A DNA stretch of 29,285 nt, from the IMG/VR virus record IMGVR_UViG_3300047297_000122, positions 1-29,285 of that record. One strand, given 5' to 3'. A program made the translations under genes and the position numbers. Below are positions 1-13,416 of this stretch, piece after piece. How positions within the stretch are numbered: position 1 is the stretch's first letter; each line of letters starts with the position of its first letter. Under the pieces are notes generated by a model that was given only the letters and a program-made list of their open reading frames with translations, was not told the DNA's origin and did not search any database. Source of the stretch: a virus.

Positions 1-300
1 TCCTTGGTCCCCGAAAATTGTGATCACAGAAGGTGTCTTGGGCGGAGCGAGGGCCTCTGCCAAGATGAAAGACAGCCCGTGCTTATGGGTCAGCAGTGTA
101 TTATATGCGATTTGCATATCCGAGATACCTACTGAAATTTTTGAAACGGCCTTCAATTCTATTTTGAAAGTCCCAGCGGGAGAAGACACGTCAATATCGG
201 GTATTCCGCCCCCATGTCGGTTCTCGATGCGGGTGCATAGGCATCCTTCGGCCTCAAGAAGAGGCTTCAGGCTCTTCCAAAGCTTTGCTTCCGGTCCCAT
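1..300 (-). CDS. PD-(D/E)xK phage nuclease, C-terminal part missing at window edge
   Basis: The frame is open for 100 codons from ATG at 300 to the left edge, so the gene is truncated by the window. The translation has the PD-(D/E)xK nuclease arrangement: GGGIPDID at about residues 34-41, then FKIELKA at about 49-55 (metal-binding D, then E-x-K), then SDMQIAYNTLLTHKHG, which resembles the Q-x(n)-Y/H-G helix of VRR-NUC and resolvase-like enzymes. It would cut DNA, plausibly branched or packaging intermediates; that role is inferred. A GGAGG lies about 10 bases before the ATG, and the start overlaps the end of the terminase small subunit gene by 47 bases, so the two are probably translationally coupled. 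Similar nucleases often sit next to phage terminase genes. Confidence 0.72.
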   Translation of the reverse strand, partial: MGPEAKLWKSLKPLLEAEGCLCTRIENRHGGGIPDIDVSSPAGTFKIELKAVSKISVGISDMQIAYNTLLTHKHGLSFILAEALAPPKTPSVITIFGDQG

Positions 301-829
301 TTGTGCTGGCCTCCGATGGGGTTACGTCCTTGAGGAACGGGTATTTTTCCTGCAACTCCATCAAGCGCGTCACGATCTGGTCGCGGCTCATGTTCTCGAT
401 GCGGTTAAGCGTCTCACGGCGGTCAGTCGTTAGGCCACCCAAGGCGCTGCGCAGCTTCTCTGCGTTGATGGCAGCGGAAAACTGGTTAGCCTCTTCCGCA
501 CCACGTGACAGGTTATACAGGCGCTCCAACTGTCCCAGCGTGGTCACACCATACTTACGTTCCTTGGCCTCTCGCAGTTCCTTGATATACTCGACAACGT
601 GAGGAAAATCCGTGCCGTTCAGCAGCCTACTGGCATAGGTAGCCGCCATGTGGTCATTGAAGCCAGCGCGGCGGGCGCATTCGGCGTTGGTGTATAGCCC
701 TTCAGCATAGAGTTCGGCAAAAGTCTTCTGCCGTTCTGTGATCACACGACCAAAATCCTCTTCTATCTTAGCGATGTTTTGCCCCTTCAAAGCAGCGGCG
801 GCTTCGCGGTTCTTCCTTGCGCCTCGCAT
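254..829 (-). CDS. terS: Terminase small subunit
   Basis: A 191-residue protein of the Terminase_2 type. After a basic N-terminus, residues about 33-60 carry TERQKTFAELYAEG and NAECARRAGF, the helix-turn-helix signature of small terminases (RQ..F..Y..G.....A..AGF). The downstream segment with repeated Ala-rich helices (NQFSAAINAEKLRSALGGL) also fits. The protein binds the packaging site and hands the genome to the large subunit, which is not in the window. The start is supported by GGAGG in the leader just before the ATG. The gene is the first of a leftward packaging operon and is followed by an overlapping nuclease. The structured non-coding region to its right may contain its binding site. 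Confidence 0.85.
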   Translation of the reverse strand: MRGARKNREAAAALKGQNIAKIEEDFGRVITERQKTFAELYAEGLYTNAECARRAGFNDHMAATYASRLLNGTDFPHVVEYIKELREAKERKYGVTTLGQLERLYNLSRGAEEANQFSAAINAEKLRSALGGLTTDRRETLNRIENMSRDQIVTRLMELQEKYPFLKDVTPSEASTNGTGSKALEEPEASS

Positions 830-914
830 GGCGGTCCTCCAAGTTTACTAAACCACCTTTTGGTTACTGCCGCAGGGGGCAGTCGGTCAAGGCGAATCAG
901 GCAAAAAAGCTATA

Positions 915-1101
915 AGGGTTTTTTAGGGGTCTCCCCTTTCGTTTCGTTACAGTAAGTCCCCCTGAAAATGTTAAGTGTAAATGGACTGTGTTGAACACTT
1001 CCTATTGTTTTCAGATACTTACATATACTCATTACACTTTTTCCATTCTTACAGAGGTTCAACGAAGTTTTGAAATCAATAGGGGACCCCTAAAAAACCC
1101 T
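915..1101. repeat. Long inverted repeat with palindromic arms
   Basis: The left arm (915-937) and right arm (1081-1101) are inverted copies that differ only by a 2-base gap. Each arm reads AGGGG..CCCCT joined to TAAAAAACCCT, or its complement. Each arm is itself a small palindrome: AGGGG-TCT-CCCCT at 925-937 and AGGGG-A-CCCCT at 1081-1091. The arms enclose 143 bases that contain a further extended stem at 952-1022. Possible roles are bidirectional transcription termination, a replication origin or a packaging signal; the sequence does not decide among them. Confidence 0.8.
952..1022. repeat. Nested extended stem-loop inside the inverted repeat
   Basis: Three consecutive stem segments are collinear: GTAAGT (952-957) with ACTTAC (1017-1022), CTGAAAA (962-968) with TTTTCAG (1008-1014), and AAGTGT (973-978) with ACACTT (995-1000). 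The tip contains GTGTTGAACAC (988-998), another palindrome. Together they make a stem of 19 base pairs interrupted by small internal loops, centred within the larger inverted repeat. It could extrude as a cruciform or act as a protein-binding array. Confidence 0.75.
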
Positions 1102-1182
1102 ATATACCTTTTTTTGGCCCTTTTTTGGCCTCTAAGTGCTTGATGCAAATGAAAAAACCCTCAACACAAAACTCATTACACT
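1027..1182. repeat. Two copies of ACTCATTACACT
   Basis: An exact 12-base direct repeat occurs at 1027-1038 and 1171-1182, one copy beside each of the two extended stems. The related words AAGTGTAAATG (973-983, near-complement) and TGTGTTGA (987-994 and, on the plus strand, 1204-1211; complement at 1161-1168) recur in the same region. This gives an iteron-like pattern. Confidence 0.65.
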
Positions 1183-1223
1183 CCCTTTCGGAAATGTAAA
1201 AAGTGTGTTGAGGGCGGTTTTTC
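1151..1223. repeat. Second extended stem-loop, terminator-like
   Basis: CCCTCAACAC (1158-1167) pairs perfectly with GTGTTGAGGG (1205-1214). An outer A-run at 1152-1157 faces a T-run at 1218-1222, and an inner TTACA (1176-1180) pairs with TGTAA (1195-1199). The A-stem-T arrangement would allow a bidirectional rho-independent terminator, although the long loop is unusual for one. Its size (73 bases) is close to that of the first extended stem (71 bases), and it carries the same repeated words. Confidence 0.7.
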
Positions 1224-1276
1224 TTCCAGCGATTTCATATAGTTAGCATCTAACTTTTCCGAGGTCAAGTGTCATA

Positions 1277-1357: not shown

Positions 1358-1391
1358 TTGCAAGTCCACCCACATTGTGTACAGTGAACAA
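1358..1391 (+). promoter_or_regulatory. Likely early promoter with palindromic operator
   Basis: A possible -35 TTGCAA (1358-1363) is followed after 16 bases by TACAGT (1380-1385). The second box lies inside the palindrome TTGTGTACAGTGAACAA (1375-1391), which fits TTGTnnACnGTnnACAA. The same form occurs at 10362-10378, and a related split palindrome is at 7814-7842. The boxes are only fair matches to sigma-70 consensus, but the shared palindrome upstream of the long early operon argues for a regulated promoter. Confidence 0.5.
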
Positions 1392-4076: not shown

Positions 4077-4318
4077 CCAAGGTCACGCACAAAAGCACGG
4101 CGGAGATGCAAGCCTTCGAGAAGATCAGCAGGGATATGAATCGCTGCTTTGAGACATGGGAAGCGGCGGGCATCCAGCCCAGCCTTGCCCTGTGGGCAAT
4201 GACAGTGCTGATCACCGAAACCTTGCGCAACGCACTGGACGGCGACAGAGGGAAAGTCGCGGAGTTTATACTTGCCGCGATGAACTCTGCTTTGTCGGGC
4301 CAAGAAGGGAAGAACTGA
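4073..4318 (+). CDS. Small helical protein of unknown function
   Basis: An 81-residue protein that is mainly alpha-helical by appearance: AEMQAFEKISRDMNRCFETWEAAG, then SLALWAMTVLITETLRNALDG, then KVAEFILAAMNSAL. No recognised family. ATG at 4073 is chosen over the in-frame ATG at 4040 because it forms an ATGA overlap with the previous stop, like the other genes of this operon. It ends in a TGATG overlap with the next gene. Confidence 0.6.
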   Translation: MTKVTHKSTAEMQAFEKISRDMNRCFETWEAAGIQPSLALWAMTVLITETLRNALDGDRGKVAEFILAAMNSALSGQEGKN

Positions 4319-4932
4319 TGGTGGGCGGGTTGAATTACGCGCCGGAAGACGTGCGCACCAGCGAAGTCATGGTGGCATCGATTTCAGGGTCGGGTGTGGC
4401 CTTTGCCTTCATGCCCCACAAGGTGGGCGAAGAGCCCCAAATCGTGGCGATTGCGCCCAAGATCGCCAAGTTGCACGACATCCGCATTGGCGAGACAGTC
4501 GAAGTTGGTTACGTCGAAAACTTCCCTGAGCACATCGAGCGTGTGCCGTGGCGGGCCGTTGCCATCTACAACAAAACGGATGGCAACGAAAAGACCCCGC
4601 TGGGCATCAAGCCTACGGAAGCGCGCAAGACCATCGAAGATCAGGTCTTGAACATCGTCATGAACGGCGAAGTCTGGAACCGAGCAGAGATGTATGTCGA
4701 ACTGTTCAATGAAGACTTCACGTCCCTGACGGCGTCCGAGGTCGAACGCGCAAGGTACGAGGCCATAGGCCACTCCCTGCAGCGGCTGCACGACACGGGC
4801 GCAATTGCCTGTGCCAAGGTCTACGGGCCCGCAAAGAAGAACGCCACGGCCCTGTACTACGCCAAGTCCACCCACGTGCTGGGCCGCGCACTGATGGGGC
4901 TGGACGACCTAGAGGCGGACGACAGTCGATGA
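4318..4932 (+). CDS. OB-fold/winged-helix fusion protein
   Basis: A protein of 204 residues from ATG at 4318, which overlaps the previous stop (TGATG); a longer in-frame start at 4156 would lie inside the upstream gene. Residues about 16-85 (SGSGVAFAFMPHK..EPQIVAIAPKIAKLHDIRIGETVEVGYVEN..WRAVAIY) have the strand pattern of an OB fold or cold-shock-like domain. Residues about 100-190 (RKTIEDQVLNIVMNGEVWNRAEMY...VERARYEAIGHSLQRLHDTGAI..ALYYAK) look like a winged helix-turn-helix. The combination points to a nucleic-acid-binding regulator. Both domain calls come from secondary-structure pattern, not sequence identity. Confidence 0.6.
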   Translation: MVGGLNYAPEDVRTSEVMVASISGSGVAFAFMPHKVGEEPQIVAIAPKIAKLHDIRIGETVEVGYVENFPEHIERVPWRAVAIYNKTDGNEKTPLGIKPTEARKTIEDQVLNIVMNGEVWNRAEMYVELFNEDFTSLTASEVERARYEAIGHSLQRLHDTGAIACAKVYGPAKKNATALYYAKSTHVLGRALMGLDDLEADDSR

Positions 4933-7646: not shown

Positions 7647-7723
7647 TGCGCGGTAGAGCAGTCCGGTAGCTCGTCTGGCTCATACCCAGAAGGTCGTAGG
7701 TTCAAATCCTACCCTCGCAACCA
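7647..7723 (+). tRNA. tRNA-Met (CAU), initiator-like
   Basis: The 77 bases fold as a complete cloverleaf with encoded CCA. The D arm is GAGC/GCTC, the anticodon arm TCTGG-CTCATAC-CCAGA with anticodon CAT, the variable loop AGGTC, and the T arm GTAGG-TTCAAAT-CCTAC. The acceptor TGCGCGG/CCTCGCA has one C-T mismatch at 5:68. The A11:T24 pair in the D arm is typical of bacterial initiator tRNA. The 1:72 pair is a weak T-A, and the anticodon stem keeps two of the three G-C pairs of initiators. So it is either initiator-derived or an unusual elongator. Confidence 0.9.
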
Positions 7724-10965: not shown

Positions 10966-11784
10966 ATGACAACCGCAGTTTCCAAGAAGACCGCTACCGA
11001 AGTGTCGACCGACGTTCTGGACGACATTTACGACACCGCTGGGGATGGAGCCCACTACGACTCCTCCGAGATGCAAATCCCGTTCATTCGGGTGCTGCAA
11101 GCCCTGTCGCCCCAGTTGAACAAGAACAAGCCTGAGTACATCAAGGGTGCGTCCGCTGGTGACATCTACAACACCGTGACCAATCAAGTCTGGCCCAGCG
11201 AAAACGGCATTACTGTCATCCCCGTCTACCAAGAAACCAAGTATCTGGAGTTTGTGCCACGGTCACAGGGCGGCGGGTTCAAGGGTGAGCGCCATGCGTC
11301 TGACCCCGACCTGCAAAGCACCCACCGCGAAGGCTCCAAGGAACTCTTGCCCAACGGCAACGAGTTGGTGAAGAGCGACCACCACTTCTGCCTGATCCTA
11401 GACGATGACGGCTCTTACCAGCCAGCCATCGTGGACATGAAGTCCACCGCCCTGAAGGTGTCGCGCCGCTGGAAGACCCAGATTGCGATGCAGAAGGTGA
11501 AGTCGCCTGATGGTCGTATGCTTACCCCCGCCCTCTACGCCACCATGTGGAAGCTTGGCGTGGTCGAGGAAAGCAATGACCAAGGTTCGTGGTCCAACTG
11601 GTCGGTAGACAAAATCGGTCTGGTGCAGTCCCGTGAACTGTTCCAAGAAGCCAAGGCCCTGCGCGAAAGCATCGCCGCTGGTTCGGTTAAGGCCGCTGCA
11701 GACCCTGATCGTGGCTCCAACTCCAGCAACGGTTCGGGCAACGCCAACCGTGGCGGTGTGCGTGAAGACGAAATTCCCTTTTAA
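10966..11784 (+). CDS. Phage single-stranded DNA-binding-like protein
   Basis: A 272-residue protein. The core (about 35-215) is rich in strands and aromatic residues (IPFIRVLQALSPQLNK, VIPVYQETKYLEFVPRSQGG). It is followed by a disordered Ser/Asn/Gly linker (SNSSNGSGNANRGG) and an acidic tip EDEIPF. A flexible linker plus an acidic, hydrophobic-ended tip is the layout of bacterial and phage SSB proteins, where the tip recruits partner enzymes. Its place just before primase and polymerase agrees. The core is not a typical bacterial OB signature, so the call relies on tail, context and resemblance to phage proteins annotated this way. Confidence 0.6.
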   Translation: MTTAVSKKTATEVSTDVLDDIYDTAGDGAHYDSSEMQIPFIRVLQALSPQLNKNKPEYIKGASAGDIYNTVTNQVWPSENGITVIPVYQETKYLEFVPRSQGGGFKGERHASDPDLQSTHREGSKELLPNGNELVKSDHHFCLILDDDGSYQPAIVDMKSTALKVSRRWKTQIAMQKVKSPDGRMLTPALYATMWKLGVVEESNDQGSWSNWSVDKIGLVQSRELFQEAKALRESIAAGSVKAAADPDRGSNSSNGSGNANRGGVREDEIPF

Positions 11785-11841: not shown

Positions 11842-13416
11842 ATGTCAAACGAGCAAAGATTTCTTGAAGCCTTCGCCGGATCGGAAGAAGGCCACGGGCA
11901 AACGACCGTCACAAGTGCGCGTCGATCCAAGGATGGCAAGGCTGAAGCCAAAAGCTTCGTGGTCCGAGGGCCGCTGACCGAGGACATCATCGCAAGCCAC
12001 TTGGGTGGAAAGCAGGGCATTGGAGCCATTCCAATCACCCGCGAGAACCGCGCCAAGTTTGGCGCAATCGACATCGACCAATACGACCTCGACCATGCGG
12101 GCCTGATTGCAAAGGTGCGCAAGTATCGGCTCCCTGTCATCCCCTGTCGGTCGAAGTCAGGCGGGGCCCACCTGTTTGTCTTTTTATCCGATTGGGTGGA
12201 AGCCCGACTGCTGCGCGAATACCTAGGCGAGATGGCCTCTGCACTGGGCTATGCGAAGGCCGAAATCTTCCCAAAACAGGACTCGATCCTGATCGAAAAG
12301 GGTGACGTCGGCAACTTCATCAACCTCCCCTACTTTGATGCGGAAAATACGCTCCGCTATGCGTTTAATGACGCTGGGGAGGCTATGACCCTAGAAGAAT
12401 TTCTTGACGCTGTAGAGGCCAGCAGGGTCGATCTATCGGCCATGGAGTTTCTGACCTACGTCGACGAGGATACAGCGCAGGAAGACGCCCCAGAGCGCGG
12501 CTGGCTAAAGGAACTGCCACCGTGCATCCGCAACAAGCTACGCGAAGGCCCGATTACGTCCGAGCGCAACCATTGGGCATTCCAGTACTGCGTCTTCTGC
12601 AAGAAAAAGGACATCGATAGCTGGAAGCCTATGGTCGAGGAGTTCAACGCACGGGAGTTTTCCCCGCCGCTGCCCTCGCAGGAATTGTCCGGCACGGTCA
12701 TGCGGTCGCACGACAAGAAGGAATATGGCTACAAGTGCAACGAGCCCGCCATAGCCGCCTACTGCGACAAGAAGGCTTGCCGCAAGCTAAAGCACGGCAT
12801 TGGCAGCAAGACAGCCGACCTGCCCAACATAGGTGGCCTGACCATCCTTATGTCGGACCCGAAGCTGTTGTTCTTGGACGTCGATGGCAAGCGGTTGGAG
12901 ATCACGATCAAACAATTGCAGCACCAGACACTATTCCAAGAGGCTTGCATGGAACAACTGCTGTTCGCCCCGCAAAGGCTCAAGGACCCCGATTGGGTGG
13001 CTATGGTCAACGATATGCTGCGCAACGCCACACAGGTCCCTGTGCCCGAAGAATTGACCACACGGGGCCAGTTCGTCGATCTACTCAAGACCTACTGCAC
13101 CAGCCGGATAAGAGCCAAGGACCCAGAAGAGTTGAGCATGGGCAAGCCTTGGACAGACGAGGTCATAGGCCGCACGATGTTCACCATGGGTGGCCTGTTC
13201 GAGTTCCTGCGGCAGCGTAACTTCAGCCTTCTGACCAAGCCGCAGGTGCAGCAAATCCTGAAGTCGATGAATAACGATGCCGACTGTGACGGTCACAAGA
13301 GCATCAAGAAGTCCGATGGATCATGGTCCACAGTTCGCGTGTGGTGGGTTCCCCAGTTCTCTAACGATGAGGTTTCAATGCCTCCAAAGGAAGTACAATC
13401 CGATGTCCCATTCTGA
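11842..13416 (+). CDS. TOTE-type archaeo-eukaryotic primase
   Basis: A 524-residue protein. The N-terminal domain has the AEP catalytic pattern: GAIDID (Asp77 and Asp79, metal ligands), then SKSGGAHLFVFL (His110, nucleotide binding), then EIFPKQD and GNFINLPYF (about 150-180), which are characteristic of the TOTE/TR-AEP primases. It would make primers for the family A polymerase of the same operon. The middle region has several cysteines (CNEPAIAAYCDKKACRKLKHG, about 300-320) that could bind zinc. The C-terminal part is unassigned; no ring-helicase motifs follow. GAAGGGAAGG precedes the ATG. Confidence 0.8.
   Translation: MSNEQRFLEAFAGSEEGHGQTTVTSARRSKDGKAEAKSFVVRGPLTEDIIASHLGGKQGIGAIPITRENRAKFGAIDIDQYDLDHAGLIAKVRKYRLPVIPCRSKSGGAHLFVFLSDWVEARLLREYLGEMASALGYAKAEIFPKQDSILIEKGDVGNFINLPYFDAENTLRYAFNDAGEAMTLEEFLDAVEASRVDLSAMEFLTYVDEDTAQEDAPERGWLKELPPCIRNKLREGPITSERNHWAFQYCVFCKKKDIDSWKPMVEEFNAREFSPPLPSQELSGTVMRSHDKKEYGYKCNEPAIAAYCDKKACRKLKHGIGSKTADLPNIGGLTILMSDPKLLFLDVDGKRLEITIKQLQHQTLFQEACMEQLLFAPQRLKDPDWVAMVNDMLRNATQVPVPEELTTRGQFVDLLKTYCTSRIRAKDPEELSMGKPWTDEVIGRTMFTMGGLFEFLRQRNFSLLTKPQVQQILKSMNNDADCDGHKSIKKSDGSWSTVRVWWVPQFSNDEVSMPPKEVQSDVPF

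Follow-up and report, generated by a model that had tools for sequence, protein, structure and literature searches.

The replication origins of phage lambda and the Stx phages contain iterons for the O protein (PMC7466680). Phage NrS-1 encodes a primase-polymerase that uses one particular short motif, TTTGGTTA, as its start site for DNA synthesis (PMC8718748); for the PolpTN2-like and PrimQH primases, it was proposed from structure that a C-terminal winged helix recognizes the cognate origin via helix 3 and the wing (PMC5862659); and in plasmid pRN1, a long stem-loop next to a terminator was proposed as the origin (PMC4234260). Here, we analyzed a linear virus record of 29,285 bases, which is a fragment (the window, meaning the whole stretch of DNA), together with related loci. 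We estimate at roughly 60% the probability that the region upstream of the terminase small subunit gene terS is this phage's single origin-type iteron locus and that it is read by the phage's AEP primase.

The locus resembles the lambda and Stx origins in having tandem short iterons by AT-rich DNA and a phage-encoded candidate for an iteron-bound initiator. However, in lambda the O gene itself contains the iterons and the initiator is a separate protein, whereas here several kb (about 10 kb in the window) separate the array from its putative reader, which is the primase itself; moreover, the words are about 7-9 bp long, spaced by one turn, arranged in inverted sets and swapped between phages. 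The short-motif start of the NrS-1 enzyme suggested the idea of the primase as the word reader. Both are phage enzymes of the AEP superfamily with a short start motif, a putative one in the present case, and GTG is also found in the NrS-1 motif; however, recognition in NrS-1 has been assigned to a helix-bundle domain and the template strand, whereas here we expect a C-terminal winged helix to read duplex DNA at arrays of words. The PolpTN2-like and PrimQH enzymes share with our candidate an AEP primase with a C-terminal winged helix as the proposed origin reader. In their case this is a speculation without sites, while here there is a family of sites that covaries with the wing, and the primase belongs to a different AEP group (AEP-TOTE type). 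To judge from the searched literature, origin recognition by the winged helix of an AEP primase would here gain its first set of sites. Finally, pRN1 is likewise an AEP-based replicon with a long stem-loop beside a terminator, but it has a single stem-loop, whereas here conservation concerns the word array, and just one subclade has the long hairpin.

The leftward genes of the window begin at terS (829-254, minus strand; Pfam Terminase_2, E 5e-7; PHROG terminase small subunit, E 2e-13), the first gene of the leftward, late operon, and pick up again from the right end of the window. The rightward genes run from 1430 and include those for the AEP primase, a UvrD-type helicase and a family A DNA polymerase. 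Therefore, 830-1430 is the divergent gap between two operons. A nuclease-like gene (1-303, minus strand), which is cut by the contig end, overlaps the end of terS, as does its homologue in the compared relatives; its product contains a GGGIPDI...ELK motif (read by eye) and had no match in a Pfam search. The nearest cultured phages by TerS are the Pelagibacter phages HTVC027P and HTVC023P, phage 023Pt_psg01 and phage DSL-LC04 (31-36% identity), and no known phage had a direct DNA match. An Rfam search returned only a tRNA, and a tRNA-Met (CAT) gene lies within the early region at 7647-7723. The GC content is 39.5% at 841-1260 compared with 53-56% in the neighboring blocks, in agreement with the AT-richness noted by the sequence-only reading. 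GC skew in four near-complete relatives gave a signal confounded by gene orientation.

The sequence-only reading had also described an inverted repeat enclosing one interrupted stem and followed by another, with words shared between the stems. We recovered the outer inverted repeat (given there as 915-937 with 1081-1101) as 915-934 paired with 1082-1101, two arms of 20 nt of which 19 (95%) are complementary. Similar flanking repeats occur in L005, L125 and L163, but arms at p <= 0.05 flank only 12 of 35 arrays, arguing against the repeat as a universal feature. The inner interrupted stem at 952-1022 is present, but its fold exceeds chance by a moderate margin only (RNA z = -2.3 on the plus strand and -1.8 on the minus strand; DNA z = -2.5). 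By contrast, folding of the second stem at 1151-1223 is far beyond chance: as minus-strand RNA it reaches -36.9 kcal/mol (z = -6.9), a value that no shuffle out of 200 equaled, and as plus-strand RNA -25.8 kcal/mol (z = -5.7). The shared words were found as claimed, at or a few bases from the places first reported, with ACTCATTACACT occurring twice (1027-1038 and 1171-1182) and TGTGTTGA three times (987-994, plus; 1161-1168, minus; 1204-1211, plus). More generally, the 601-bp gap contains eight matches to AGTGTAATGAG with up to three mismatches; 300 shuffles gave 1.8 (maximum 6), and the density of such matches over the whole window would predict 0.66.

We group the words and repeats of the gap in sets. 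Set B (1160-1212) consists of GTGTTGAG at 1160-1167 (minus), GTAATGAG at 1172-1179 (minus) and GTGTTGAG at 1205-1212 (plus). The degenerate set C (952-1038) contains TGTGTTGA at 987-994 (plus), TTTACA at 976-981 (minus) and GTAATGAG at 1028-1035 (minus), and it lies where L057, L535 and L214 have their canonical 3+3 arrays. Set A, which the earlier reading did not include, is a direct repeat of CCACTTTTGTAAAG (1274-1290 and 1291-1307; two copies 17 nt apart); at its place, L005 has TGATTACA-N6-TGTAATCA. Altogether, the window has two words, GTAATGAG twice and GTGTTGA three times, in a worn version of the array of its relatives; the two words have canonical arrays in L214 (GTAATGA) and L535 (GTGTTGA). 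The array of the window itself is degenerate and lies under the five-copy threshold applied to the relatives. The argument is carried by the array-bearing relatives.

About 70 related loci have a short-word array upstream of terS. The array comprises 4-12 copies of one phage-specific word of the form GT-NNNN-A; the copies stand 9-11 bp apart and form inverted sets, usually with three copies one way and three inverted. The word differs by phage group and includes GTAATCA, GTTCTCA, GTACTCA, GTATCCA, GTCATCA, GTCCTCA, GTAAACA, GTACTAA, GTTACAA, GTAACGA, GTAACAA, GTAACCA, GTAGAAA, GTAATGA, GTGTTGA and others. In the 26-kb contig L005/G001, all 10 copies of TGATTACA lie within 357 bp; in the cultured phage HTVC023P (60.9 kb), five of the seven copies of CTAGGAAA lie inside 92 bp directly upstream of terS, at 11680-11771, and two elsewhere. 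A cluster search with the five-copy threshold detected arrays in 39 loci, whereas 120 shuffled loci (1.28 Mb) yielded none. Each contig has one array locus; contigs of 20-46 kb with the primase and without terS had no array except for one marginal five-copy match (G081, TGGA, spread over 220 bp), consistent with one locus per genome beside terS. CRP-901, the primase-polymerase of which is unrelated to this primase (PMC10149686), has a TerS homologue; it has coding sequence before terS and no array. A T-rich tract of about 40 nt adjoins the array in the L057 group. In the relatives, the arrays have the properties of an iteron origin, namely several copies of a short word, regular spacing and a single place in the genome; in the window, they are degenerate. 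The interpretation in the sequence-only reading finds partial support: its suggestion of a replication origin is favored by these arrays, kept in about 70 relatives, and by the link between word and primase wing described below, although the word itself differs by group.

Among close relatives, the iteron core of L057/L059/L060 compared with that of L066 and L072 suggests a cassette exchange of a few hundred bases, with TerS and neighboring proteins 95-100% identical. By eye, the L059 core resembles the cores of L066 and L072; thus, the cassettes seem to recombine.

The second stem (hairpin II, about 1151-1223) also has features of a transcription signal, which the earlier reading had not reported. 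Read on the minus strand, it has a GAAA tetraloop and a stem ending in GAGGG followed by TTTTTT; the tetraloop is GAAA or UUCG in the window and L001. The fold is kept with a replaced stem sequence and a T-rich 3' flank in L001, L003, L005, L013 and L016, and hairpin II is more stable as minus-strand than as plus-strand RNA in five of six cases, while L004 and L012 have a weak fold at this place; these comparisons are based on single folds. The stable hairpin, the U tract and the fold kept despite sequence change suggest that hairpin II is a minus-strand intrinsic terminator. The iteron words form its arms. About 20 nt before it in the window's subclade lies a leftward promoter-like layout (1240-1268, minus strand; TTGACC, a 17-nt spacer and TGC-TAACTA, an extended -10), which recurs as TTGAC[CG]-N17-TGCTAA, with a TGC-TAAGTA-like -10, in L001, L002, L003, L005, L013 and L016. 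A rightward promoter-like site for the early operon, TTGCAA-N16-TACAGT, is located at 1358-1385 (plus strand), and L001 has TTGCAC-N16-TATAGT at the same place. A generic sigma-70 consensus scan called no promoter in the region at its thresholds, and both sites, which the earlier reading did not mention, rest on conserved layouts recognized by eye. From their sequences, the leftward promoter, hairpin II and the T-rich run have the anatomy of a putative early-terminated late leader. As a separate observation, runs of a 7-bp unit, CCTTGGA/TCCAAGG (GGACCTTGGACC), which is unrelated to GT-NNNN-A, lie beside the leftward promoter in many relatives; they are found in L013 at about -515 to -479 upstream of terS, similarly in L012, L014, L056 and L109, and in the window at 1305-1325.

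The predicted reader of the iterons is the AEP primase (11842-13416, plus strand; Pfam AEP-TOTE, E 9e-15; PHROG primase, E 1e-83). An AlphaFold2 model (pLDDT 85.6), which matched Prim-Pol domains in Foldseek with CAPP Prim-Pol as the best PDB match (E 7e-11), predicts an AEP catalytic domain followed by a C-terminal winged helix with helices at 449-458 and 466-476 and strands at 483-489 and 495-504 (block pLDDT about 92); a Pfam search with the C-terminal part alone gave no match. The part that follows the iteron word is the wing (residues 481-500; 13282-13341, plus strand). In a word-association test of 54 primases (38 after removal of near-duplicates) corrected for overall identity, the columns most associated with the word were 487, 497, 485 and 495, the top four of 524, all of which lie on the two wing strands of the model. 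When the same test was applied to TerS, the nuclease, the SNF2 helicase, an SSB-like protein and PolA, single columns scored equally high, because the permutation ignores phylogeny, but were scattered. Column-by-column association as the sole evidence is therefore nonspecific, the SNF2 helicase, PolA and the nuclease matching the scores, and it is only the clustering in the wing that is special.

Comparisons of close relatives point in the same direction and are more informative than the column statistic. In the sharpest case, the primases of L163 (GTTCTCA) and L434 (GTACTCA) are 96.8% identical, and the 16 differences in 503 residues affect 8 of the 18 wing residues and 8 of the 485 residues outside the wing (p 5e-9). 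No such substitution cluster was seen in eight further proteins of this pair. Between L163 and L456 (GTAAACA), 5 of 18 wing residues changed versus 16 of 485 (p 5e-4), with a scan P of 0.054 and clustering in the TerS C-terminal tail as well. Residue 487 was kept in 10 of 10 sister pairs with the same word, down to 65% identity. A word-to-residue-487 rule, fixed before new contigs were scored and with contigs lacking a clear word left unscored, gave N for L453 (TCTC) and L434 (ACTC), A for L456 and L435 (AAAC), R for L497 and L528 (AACG), R for L476 (AACA) and R for the ATCA phages; it fitted every new phage with a clear covered word, although several of them are closely similar to one another or to members of the training set. 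The window, with GTAATGA and GTGTTGA, has S487, W495 and T497 in common with both L214 and L535. Residue 487 does not follow the word throughout: K occurs with both AGAA and AACC, S can occur with AACG as well as AATG, and one ACTA phage has N. Some same-word control pairs showed no wing excess; three others showed a mild to moderate one (L246/L260, p 0.019; L163/L453, p 0.043; L294/L165, p 0.0017, with six aligned residues), which argues that the wing evolves fast in general. The phylogenetic correction of the word-wing tests, which covered 38-60 primases, was simple.

Other early proteins were considered as readers. The OB-fold and winged-helix protein encoded at 4318-4932 was rejected, as its C-terminal half is identical in L066 (ACTC) and L068 (CATC) and the halves found in AAAC phages are unrelated. 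The small HTH protein encoded at 1879-2100 was also rejected, being near-identical in L009 and L013 despite different words. Small early proteins that vary, beyond those tested here, may act as co-readers. As a further observation, the protein at 4318-4932 and its homologues in L066, L068, L093, L320 and L322 have a near-identical OB-like N-terminal half and a C-terminal half swapped wholesale between close relatives; they look like modular DNA-binding proteins.

The words might instead serve a phage regulator as operators where the early and late promoters diverge, with hairpin II as an attenuator before the late operon and replication beginning elsewhere. The promoter-like elements in both directions, the minus-strand terminator with its U tract and tetraloop, the position of set A adjoining the -35 of the leftward promoter and the further DNA-binding candidates encoded in the early operon would all fit. 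However, the word follows a replication protein, the primase; the OB-fold and winged-helix protein does not track it; and no hairpin II was seen in the L057-type relatives, which have the clearest arrays. We consider this explanation unlikely.

Packaging sites (cos or pac) are often located upstream of terS, and the sequence-only reading regarded such a site as the other serious option. In that case, the words would be TerS-binding sites; the array lies directly upstream of terS in relatives found via TerS, and the N terminus of TerS is of helix-turn-helix type. Yet, L057 (GTTCTCA) and L060 (GTACTCA) have different words and 100% identical TerS and neighboring nuclease, L063 and L072 are the same and L066 and L068 differ little in the compared TerS region, and four phages that share GTAATCA (L076, L126, L092 and L099) differ in the TerS helix. 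TerS was therefore rejected as the word reader; because the word is independent of TerS, a TerS-read pac or cos site is disfavored and very improbable, although a packaging cut may still be located in this region. As a side observation, TerS of L163 and L456 differ by eight clustered substitutions at residues 156-173, in the C-terminal tail, where terS and the nuclease gene overlap.

That hairpin II is a plain bidirectional terminator among chance repeats would agree with the A and T tracts on both of its sides and its high stability on both strands but leaves unexplained the same word in several non-terminator places, the confinement of all copies in the 26-kb contig and the primase-wing link, so that this reading, which is contradicted for the relatives and could stand for the window alone only if its degenerate words were non-functional, is hardly credible.

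For an iteron locus read by the primase, we propose the following mechanism. Copies of the short word (GTAATGAG/GTGTTGAG here; GT-NNNN-A generally) one helical turn apart, in mutually inverted sets and flanked by an inverted repeat, would be recognized as duplex DNA by the wing of the primase winged helix, as the covariation suggests. By analogy, several primases may bind cooperatively, open the adjoining AT-rich DNA and start primer synthesis, so that replication would be initiated at the array. In the window's subclade, the divergent promoters, early and late, would enclose the array, and set B, with its inverted words, appears to have been turned into a leftward intrinsic terminator just past the late promoter, the sequence being observed and its function predicted. 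We speculate that primase binding also times late transcription.

Beyond this, we tentatively suggest, at slightly less than even odds, a rapidly switching lock-and-key origin specificity, in which the wing reads the four-base core of GT-NNNN-A, near-identical genomes differ jointly in cassette and wing, and the word can be predicted from the wing. Given a candidate origin, a candidate initiator and a relation of residue to base, the recognition of an origin by an AEP primase becomes directly testable. The rapid swapping of words suggests selection on origin specificity. If the lock-and-key model is true, these phages would offer a readable recognition code for a replication initiator in an abundant phage group, and its driving force might be competition with relatives or satellites that co-infect and use the same origin.
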